Assembly (NCBI RefSeq): GCF_900104625.1 | Contig: NZ_FNVZ01000003.1 | Coordinates: 1-64,000, forward strand | Length of the DNA: 64,000 bases | Reading direction: 5' to 3' | Origin: Leptotrichia massiliensis | GTDB lineage: Bacteria; Fusobacteriota; Fusobacteriia; Fusobacteriales; Leptotrichiaceae | Shown: one piece after another, positions 38,168-40,762 of the stretch | How the letters are laid out: the number at the start of each line of letters is the position of its first letter | How positions within the stretch are numbered: the stretch's first letter is position 1 | Notes under the pieces: model-generated | Seen by the model: the letters and a program-made list of their open reading frames with translations, nothing else | Database searches by the model: none | Told to the model about the DNA's origin: nothing | Made by a program: the position numbers and the translations under genes

Positions 38168-39121
38168 ATGGCCACAAAATATAAATTTAATTATGGAAAA
38201 TTTTTTAGAACTATTATTGTACTGCTTTGTTTAGTGGCATTAATAAGATTTGGTAAGGATGTTTTTGAACGTCATTTTTTTAACACTAGACTTACAGTTA
38301 TTCCAGATGTTATGAACCTTGACAAGAAGGATGCTGTAAAATATTTGAAAAAAGCTGGGTTAAAAGTCAAAGTTATTAATTCCAAAACAGAAAAAGTACC
38401 ACTGGATACGGTTTATAATCAGGATCCACGTCCAGGCAAGGAAGTAAAGGTAAACAGAGTTATAAGAATCTGGGTAAATAATGGGGAAGATGTAAAAGTC
38501 CCTAATATTATTGGATTAGAACTGCTTGAAGCAAGATCTCGGTTAAAAGGGCAAAATATTCAAATAGAAACAATTGATTATTATCCATCTAACCAGAAAT
38601 ATAATACAATTTTAGGAGTTTATCCAAAACCAGGTACAAAACTCGAGATTAACCAAAAAATTTCAATACTGGTTTCTTCACAGCAAATGGTAGATCCGTC
38701 AGTTATGCCAAATATAACAGGACTTGACTTAAACGATGCGAGAGAATTGTTAAAACAAATTGGACTTGATATTGGAAATATTTCACGTACAAGTGACCCA
38801 ACATTGCCTGTAAATACGATTATTTCTACAAATCCTGCAGCTGGAACGAAGATTCAGAGAGGACAGAAGATATCAATTGTGTTAAATACTGGAGCCGCTC
38901 CTAAAAAACGTGAAAAATCAACAGAAGAAATTATTAATCAATCTCAGGAAGATATAGATAATCAAGAAATAGAAAGAATTATCGACAACACCATTAACCA
39001 AATGGATCGGCAAGGTACCGAGCAGCAAAACAATGGAAATTCGCAGTCTTCCCCACGTAATGGTTCAAGAGGCGGTGGAAATAATAATGATTCTGGTGGC
39101 GATGAAGATAGCAGCGAATAG
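38168..39121 (+). CDS. membrane-anchored PASTA-domain protein without kinase
   Basis: 317-residue protein with one membrane helix (13-27) and three extracytoplasmic PASTA domains: about 43-105 (IPDVMNLDKKDAVKYLKKAGL), 106-175 (VPNIIGLELLEARSRL) and 176-240 (MPNITGLDLNDARELL). A Gln/Asn/Gly/Ser-rich tail follows. PASTA domains bind muropeptides in PrkC/PknB-type kinases, but no kinase domain is present here. The gene is followed by rsgA and rpe, the order seen downstream of prkC in Firmicutes. GAGGTG precedes the ATG. Confidence 0.9.
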   Translation: MATKYKFNYGKFFRTIIVLLCLVALIRFGKDVFERHFFNTRLTVIPDVMNLDKKDAVKYLKKAGLKVKVINSKTEKVPLDTVYNQDPRPGKEVKVNRVIRIWVNNGEDVKVPNIIGLELLEARSRLKGQNIQIETIDYYPSNQKYNTILGVYPKPGTKLEINQKISILVSSQQMVDPSVMPNITGLDLNDARELLKQIGLDIGNISRTSDPTLPVNTIISTNPAAGTKIQRGQKISIVLNTGAAPKKREKSTEEIINQSQEDIDNQEIERIIDNTINQMDRQGTEQQNNGNSQSSPRNGSRGGGNNNDSGGDEDSSE

Positions 39122-39196
39122 TTAAAATGATTAAAAATTTAGAAAGGAGATGGGAGTTATTTTGAATGTTATTTTGAAATTTCTCCCAAATATTTT

Positions 39197-40090
39197 ATTA
39201 AAGGAAAAGTTATTAGAAAAATAAAAGGATTTTACTATGTTTTAGATGAAAATTCCAAAAATTTAAATGAAGAAAATATTTATGAATGCAAGTTACGTGG
39301 AACATTAAAAGTAAAAAATGATAAAATGAACTGTATTATCGGGGATATTGTAGAATTTGACGAAAAGGAAAAAGTTATTGAAAAAATTGAAAAAAGGGAA
39401 AACTTTTTATATCGTCCACTAATTGCAAACATTGATTTTATTGGTATTTTATTTGCAATAAAAAGTCCAAATTTTGATTTTACCAATTTTCAAAAAATGC
39501 TGTTAAACGCAAATTCTCAAAATATTCCAATTGTGCTAATATTATCAAAAATTGACTTGGTTTCAGAAGACGAGCTGAAAGAATTTTTTAATAAGTTTAG
39601 ACAAATTTTTAAAGAAACAATTTCTATTTTCCCAATTTCAACTGAAACGAATACTGGAATTAAGGAATTACAGCAATATATAAATAAAAAATCAGTTGTA
39701 ATTTCAGGACCATCGGGAGCTGGAAAATCCACGCTTATAAACACTCTAATTGGTAAAGAAGTACTAGTTACAAATGATATCAGCCAGAAAACAAAAAAAG
39801 GGCGACATACAACAATAGAAAGCCGATTTTTTATGTCAGCACCACATTCGTACATAATAGACACTCCAGGATTTTCGACATTGGACTTTCCAAAACTGGA
39901 AGAAAAAAAGGAACTGGAAAAGTTATTTCCAGAATTTTTAGAATTTATTCCTAACTGCAAATTTCGAGACTGTATTCACGTAAACGAGCCAAACTGTGCA
40001 ATAAAGGAAAATGTGGAAAATGATAATATTTCGCAAGAACGATATGATTTTTATCTATATTCATTACAAAATATAAAATTTAATAAATAA
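39197..40090 (+). CDS. rsgA: ribosome small-subunit-dependent GTPase RsgA
   Basis: Circularly permuted GTPase that checks 30S maturation. G1 is SGPSGAGKST, G3 is DTPGFS, and the zinc-binding end is CKFRDCIHVNEPNC. The OB-fold N-terminus (KGKVIRKIKGFYYVLDEN, about residues 2-19) is clearly coded, but no ATG, GTG or TTG lies in frame before it. The frame is open back to 39143 and the first in-frame ATG is at 39326, which would remove the OB fold. An ATT at 39197 sits where the family begins. A ribosome site (AAAGGAG, 39143-39149) precedes an ATG in another frame. Either a non-standard start or a frameshift in the leader is likely. Confidence 0.88.
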   Translation: MKGKVIRKIKGFYYVLDENSKNLNEENIYECKLRGTLKVKNDKMNCIIGDIVEFDEKEKVIEKIEKRENFLYRPLIANIDFIGILFAIKSPNFDFTNFQKMLLNANSQNIPIVLILSKIDLVSEDELKEFFNKFRQIFKETISIFPISTETNTGIKELQQYINKKSVVISGPSGAGKSTLINTLIGKEVLVTNDISQKTKKGRHTTIESRFFMSAPHSYIIDTPGFSTLDFPKLEEKKELEKLFPEFLEFIPNCKFRDCIHVNEPNCAIKENVENDNISQERYDFYLYSLQNIKFNK

Positions 40091-40123: not shown

Positions 40124-40762
40124 ATGATTAAAGAAAAAAGGACAATAATTGCACCTTCACTGCTTGCTGCAGATTTTAGCAAATTAAAAGAAGAAATTAC
40201 GGAAGTGGAAAAACTAGGAGCAGAATATCTGCATTTGGATGTTATGGATGGAAATTTTGTACCAAATATCAGCTTTGGAGCTCCTGTTATTTCATCTTTA
40301 CGAAAACATAGCAATCTTGTATTTGACATTCACCTTATGGTAAACGAACCAGATTACTTAATAGAAGATTTTGCACAATTCTCAGACATAATCACAGTCC
40401 ATGCTGAAGCTACAAAGCACTTAAACAGAACAATCCAGCTAATAAAATCTTTTGGAAAAAAAGTAGGAATTGCATTAAATCCTTCTACTCCACTGGATGT
40501 TATAAAATATGATCTGGATAATATTGATATGATGTTAATTATGACAGTAAATCCAGGATTTGGCGGGCAGAAGTTCATTCCTAAAATGCTTCAAAAAATA
40601 AAAGATTTGCGAAAAATTAACCAAAATATTGATATTGAAGTGGATGGAGGAATCAACGCTGAAACTGGAAAATTAGTAAAAGAAGCTGGAGCAAATGTGT
40701 TAGTTGCAGGTTCATATATTTTTAGCGGAAATTATAAAGAAAAAATTGAATCTTTAAAATAA
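40124..40762 (+). CDS. rpe: ribulose-phosphate 3-epimerase
   Basis: Pentose-phosphate enzyme that interconverts ribulose-5-P and xylulose-5-P. The 212-residue TIM barrel has APSLLAADFSKL at the N-terminus, HLDVMDGNFVPNISFG with metal ligands, DIHLMV, MTVNPGFGGQKF and VDGGI. The ATG at 40124 is preferred. A TTG three codons upstream is closer to GGAAAGAG and cannot be excluded. It follows rsgA by 33 bases. Confidence 0.95.
   Translation: MIKEKRTIIAPSLLAADFSKLKEEITEVEKLGAEYLHLDVMDGNFVPNISFGAPVISSLRKHSNLVFDIHLMVNEPDYLIEDFAQFSDIITVHAEATKHLNRTIQLIKSFGKKVGIALNPSTPLDVIKYDLDNIDMMLIMTVNPGFGGQKFIPKMLQKIKDLRKINQNIDIEVDGGINAETGKLVKEAGANVLVAGSYIFSGNYKEKIESLK

Follow-up and report, generated by a model that had tools for sequence, protein, structure and literature searches.

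A probable AUU start codon behind a predicted looped-out hairpin in Leptotrichia massiliensis rsgA, and AUU, AUC or AUA at the homologous position in most sampled Fusobacteriota

The described systems closest to the present locus are summarized here from excerpts of the papers cited. IF3 represses non-canonical start codons, and infC, the gene for IF3, autoregulates through its own ATT codon (PMC5472188). In E. coli, infC and pcnB are both AUU genes (PMC4245954), and S. aureus infC uses AUA (PMC13009471). Output from AUU or AUA starts combined with an extended Shine-Dalgarno (SD) sequence was roughly 10% of that from AUG in poor medium (PMC13009471). Weak start codons are also carried, besides pcnB, by Streptomyces sigR (GTC) and by cvfC1 and ccpN of S. 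aureus; in the last three genes the weak codon is conserved and accompanied by a strong SD, and repression by IF3 has been demonstrated for sigR (PMC5472188, PMC13009471 and PMC4245954 for this group). A different arrangement was described for phage T4 genes 38 and 25, where a hairpin shortens the SD spacing from 22 to 5 and from 27 to 11 nucleotides (PMC3014915). As for ribosome assembly, RsgA checks the decoding centre and IF3 can release RbfA (PMC9032327).

The gene described below shares features with each of these systems. It resembles infC in its near-cognate AUH start (AUU, AUC or AUA), in its strong SD and even in its next codons, and it resembles sigR, cvfC1 and ccpN in having a conserved weak start codon with a strong SD. 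However, its product is an assembly GTPase rather than the discriminating factor, so that control by IF3 would be control of a second gene and not autoregulation. In Leptotrichia, unlike in infC, a hairpin separates the SD from the start codon. Whereas the descriptions of sigR, cvfC1, ccpN and pcnB each concern one genus or a few, the AUH start of rsgA spans a phylum and concerns 30S maturation. As in T4 genes 38 and 25, a hairpin shortens an SD spacing that is too long, here from 47 to 9 nucleotides by prediction; the T4 genes use AUG, however, whereas rsgA is chromosomal, uses AUU, AUC or AUA, and has folded-out lengths of 38 to 154 nucleotides.

The stretch of DNA analysed (the window) comprises 64,000 nucleotides of a Leptotrichia massiliensis contig; the nearest named genomes are Leptotrichia sp. 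oral taxon 879 F0557 and L. hongkongensis JMUB5056. On its plus strand, a gene for a PASTA-domain protein (38168-39121) is followed by rsgA (39197-40090; 297 codons plus stop) and by rpe, which encodes ribulose-phosphate 3-epimerase (TIGR01163) and has an ordinary ATG (40124-40762). The PASTA protein has no kinase domain; only PF03793 was recognized in it, and it matches a PknB-type PASTA kinase model in its C-terminal part only. The identity of RsgA, the small-subunit-dependent GTPase A, was given by a profile search: TIGR00157 matched with an E-value of 1.9e-60 and 204.5 bits, as compared to a curated cut-off of 100. Both domains of the RsgA/YjeQ/YloQ proteins are present, the N-terminal OB domain (PF16745) and the GTPase domain (PF03193).

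Downstream of the TAG at 39140-39142, the rsgA frame contains no stop until the end of the gene at 40090. Coding of KGKVIRKIKGFYYV begins at 39200, and the first in-frame ATG, GTG or TTG is the ATG at 39326. That the frame offers no standard start before this ATG had been stated in a preliminary description made from the sequence alone, and reading the sequence together with the list of open reading frames bore it out. The same description had placed the beginning of the OB fold at 39200 in a frame open since 39143. Indeed, PF16745 covers residues 20-76 of the frame counted from 39143 (39200-39370) with an E-value of 1.6e-11. The EngC/YloQ structure 1t9h, which we take to be that of the B. subtilis protein, aligns over residues 2-295 of the query, a protein begun at 39197. 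Within the first 30 rsgA codons of ten close Leptotrichia genomes, ten third positions vary, as compared to two first and two second positions. Judged from the sequences, the residues coded before 39326 are the conserved RsgA N-terminal domain, beyond what chance would give, because the PF16745 match, the 1t9h alignment and the dominance of third-position change coincide.

The only near-cognate in-frame position kept in all ten close relatives, as ATT, ATC or ATA, is the ATT at 39197-39199. We consider that rsgA translation very probably begins at this AUU. Another AUU, at -36 with GGGAG as SD, is present in four genomes (G003, G004, G008 and G010) but was not preferred: G000-G002 have it out of frame, and it is missing from G006, G011 and G012.

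The SD of rsgA, AAAGGAG, was read at 39143-39149; the same element occurs in the ten Leptotrichia genomes, in one of them as AAGGGAG. In the window, 47 nucleotides separate the GGAG, ending at 39149, from the AUU at 39197. This linear distance is too far for ordinary use. The interval contains a hairpin of 38 nucleotides (39151-39188) with a two-part stem, the outer part pairing 39151-39156 with 39183-39188 and the inner part 39159-39166 with 39173-39180. Its folding energy is -15.1 kcal/mol (z = -4.46), none of 200 dinucleotide shuffles was as stable, and the probability of the closing pair is 1.0. The wider stretch of 78 nucleotides around it is only modestly stable (z = -1.77). With the hairpin looped out, base 39150 and the spacer AATATTTT (39189-39196) would leave 9 nucleotides between GGAG and AUU. 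By prediction, the site thus corresponds to a split ribosome-binding site, in which a hairpin shortens the spacing of a distant SD to about 5-11 nucleotides.

The succession of SD, hairpin and AUH is the same in the ten Leptotrichia genomes, the window's included, with residual spacings of 9-12 nucleotides. Long inserts in the loop bring the total hairpin to 122, 154 and 145 nucleotides in G012, G011 and G006, respectively. The G012 insert, matched 16 times within the G012 genome and 27 times in G006, is therefore a dispersed repeat; in both genomes the stem flanking the repeat-bearing loop, the SD and the AUA are still kept. This repeat (L013 in G012, L015 in G006) carries a GC-rich hairpin, and the similarly long loop of G011 (L014) has fewer matches. 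An unrelated structure of 85 nucleotides, with a residual spacing of 11, was found in another genus (G014), and a third unrelated hairpin, palindromic, lies between AGGAGGTG and ATA in a genome of another family (G096; the shuffles for this hairpin preserved base composition but not dinucleotides). The insert is missing from other genera, whose SD and AUH stand at direct spacing. Few distinct hairpin sequences exist among the close species and few independent base-pair changes were seen in the stem. The simplest reading would be that spacer insertions survive when they fold. By prediction, the hairpin probably acts as a folded-out spacer, and the joint proposal, an AUU start served by the SD across the hairpin, appears quite likely to us.

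A regulatory role of the hairpin was also considered, with AUU as the start codon and the hairpin as a protein site or a temperature-sensitive structure gating access to the SD or the start codon. Indeed, the stem abuts the SD, and in minimum free energy structures of this leader and of those of some relatives, bases flanking the SD are paired as well; regulation would also be in keeping with a near-cognate start that lies in a structured leader. However, searches of the leader against Rfam and for terminators found nothing on the rsgA strand. Moreover, the loop tolerates inserts of about 100 nucleotides and the hairpins are of three unrelated sequences; a role in spacing accounts for this better than a specific ligand site would. 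We regard gating by the hairpin as rather improbable when set against the folded-out spacer.

The start region was then compared across Fusobacteriota. In the 98 genomes searched, rsgA was found in 96; G033 and G076 gave no match at an E-value of 1e-15. The comparison used the best match per genome only, leaving out second RsgA-like copies, and the G003 entry is an N-terminal piece. The codon preceding the conserved K/R/E/Q-G-x-V motif was ATT in 43 genes, ATC in 28, ATA in 18 and another codon in seven, so that AUH occupies the homologous position in 89 of the 96 genomes. Like the window, 64 of the 96 genes offer no ATG, GTG or TTG for the conserved N-terminus, counted from the nearest upstream in-frame stop to the conserved start; in 19 of the 96 an in-frame stop lies at most three codons upstream with no standard codon in between. 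In 18 of 28 genera, one genome or more combines AUH with the absence of a standard codon. The preliminary description had proposed comparison with other strains as a check; the lack of a standard start was seen to recur in other species and genera across the phylum. This phylum-wide pattern and the hairpin between the SD and the ATT are the two points that it had missed.

An SD at functional spacing accompanies most of these codons. In 68 of the 96 genomes, AUH stands directly before K1 and an SD matched exactly over 5 nucleotides or more lies at an aligned spacing of 4-10 in the linear RNA, 49 of these at 7 or 8; in the window such a spacing is reached only with the hairpin looped out. In four genomes (G005, G009, G072 and G073), the AUH codon with its SD sits a few codons further upstream. 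An in-frame ATG, GTG or TTG is also present upstream in 21 of the 68 well-spaced cases, G013, G027 and G028 included; these codons are mostly inside the SD or touching it, without a 5-nucleotide SD of their own. A plausible standard start was seen in eight of the 96 genes (G018, G019, G029-G032, G048 and G068) and three are ambiguous (G013, G027 and G028). In our judgement from these counts, the remaining 85 genes would be best explained by an AUH start. Since eight genomes use a plausible standard start and three are ambiguous, the AUH start of rsgA is not indispensable.

These comparisons bear on the other ways of reading the locus. The preliminary description had noted a ribosome site with ATG and TTG candidates in another frame stopping near 39222, and these elements are found in the sequence: the SD-type site AGAAAGGAG lies at 39141-39149, followed by an ATG at 39150 and by TTG at 39162 and 39174, in a frame ended by the TAA at 39222-39224. 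Translation could begin at ATG 39150 or TTG 39162 and shift into rsgA, the SD being just upstream and the two frames overlapping up to 39222. However, in relatives the same ATG opens a different short reading whose stop is a TAA overlapping the ATT, G011 and G012 have ACG in place of this ATG, and genera without the insert have the SD directly before AUH and no such frame. A conserved upstream frame overlapping rsgA, as a programmed frameshift would call for, was looked for in the leaders of three genomes, then of more species, and was not found. We judged the out-of-frame ORF (39150-39224, plus strand), whose ATG abuts the SD and whose reading and stop differ between relatives, not to be a gene. 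A frameshift is very improbable, because the other frame is not conserved in relatives and is absent in other genera.

A start at ATG 39326, giving a short RsgA, is equally hard to maintain. This is the first in-frame ATG, GTG or TTG and hence the choice of gene finders limited to these codons. However, the short form would lose most of the N-terminal domain, although this domain is kept under third-position-dominated change, and residues 1-20 of YjeQ are needed for tight 30S binding according to the excerpt of a review (PMC9032327). An error of sequencing or assembly can be ruled out, as can a gene broken in this genome, because species and genera sequenced independently have no standard start at this position either, and the rsgA frame in the window runs open to 40090, although single-base indels separate its leader from those of relatives and rsgA of L. 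hongkongensis JMUB5056 reads as two overlapping pieces with stops. The latter pieces (G003; L019/L020, L004) reflect a frameshift or assembly error in that entry. Of the three options offered in the preliminary description, an ATT start at 39197, a frameshift and a sequencing error, only the first is thus retained; absence of a standard start in other species and genera removes the error, and the lack of conservation of the other frame disfavours the shift.

To see how specific the AUH start is, other genes of the same family were read. The rpe start is ATG in 25 of 25 genes readable among 30 longer loci, and rpmI and rbfA start with ATG in 30 of 30 each; era has 27 ATG and 3 TTG (n = 30). For infC, rbfA and era, 30 loci each were taken from 33, 32 and 30 genomes with a match, respectively; the rplT motif was loose and was not relied on. 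With ATG or TTG in rpe, rpmI, rbfA and era, the AUH start is therefore particular to rsgA among these genes. Among the other window frames of at least 90 codons (n = 93), three have an AUH that follows a good SD and precedes the first standard codon; in each, a standard codon comes right after the AUH.

In the 30 infC loci of the family, AGGAGGTG is followed at a constant distance by ATA or ATT, as parsed automatically in 29 loci and by reading in the last; infC of the window's own genome starts with AUA. E. coli infC begins ATT AAA GGC, rsgA of the window ATT AAA GGA, and most infC genes of the family AUA AAA/AGA GGA. The SD of the infC genes (L055-L084, the own genome being L065) contains an in-frame GTG, which gene finders would probably annotate as a false start.

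Our preferred reading, initiation at the AUU with the SD used across the hairpin, suggests the following scheme. The AUU at 39197-39199 would be read by the initiator tRNA, giving a protein that begins fMet-Lys-Gly-Lys-Val. The hairpin at 39151-39188 would fold out and leave 9 nucleotides, near the spacing seen in genera without a hairpin. Because AUH codons are of the kind rejected by IF3, near-cognate initiation at rsgA would be weak and restrained by IF3 as it is for infC. The output of RsgA would then most likely be low and adjusted according to the strength with which IF3 acts on 30S subunits, in the manner of infC autoregulation. By analogy with infC, we lean towards IF3 control of rsgA. 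The supply of RsgA would thereby be tied to IF3, and a feedback connecting it with IF3 action and immature 30S subunits would follow naturally. More tentatively, IF3 and RsgA might form a translational circuit in Fusobacteriota through the shared IF3-sensitive AUH starts of infC and rsgA, a folded-out hairpin having been inserted into the start signal without breaking it, in Leptotrichia as well as in two or more other lineages. If such a circuit exists, less IF3 action on 30S subunits, or more immature subunits that initiate loosely, would raise RsgA and restore 30S maturation.

Near-cognate starts controlled by IF3 and SD spacings shortened by a hairpin are already known kinds. What appears new is their occurrence in rsgA, the AUH start being phylum-wide and combined with a hairpin in Leptotrichia; in the open-licence papers searched, we found neither this start across the phylum nor its combination with the hairpin. 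Gene finders restricted to ATG, GTG and TTG would place the starts of such genes wrongly, and for rsgA this appears to concern an entire phylum. That a second gene related to translation has retained a near-cognate start phylum-wide suggests that weak, IF3-sensitive translation has been selected for, and makes a link between initiation fidelity and 30S assembly directly testable. The natural hairpins, some with long loop inserts, also provide a ready series on SD displacement by RNA folding.

Finally, rsgA was inspected in 14 genomes of other phyla. Most have a usable ATG, GTG or TTG; one of them, G135, has GGAGGTG and then ATT. In the class of G135 (L163 and L195-L214 except L201), GAGGTG or GGGGTG is followed by ATT or ATC in 20 of 21 genomes, namely G135 and 19 of 20 others, G246 being the exception. 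The GTG inside the SD is in frame, and the ATT or ATC lies nine bases after it. From these sequences, the class possibly has an independent AUH start of rsgA. E. coli rsgA is annotated with the weak start TTG (L277:3958-5010), and weak rsgA starts may be more general.
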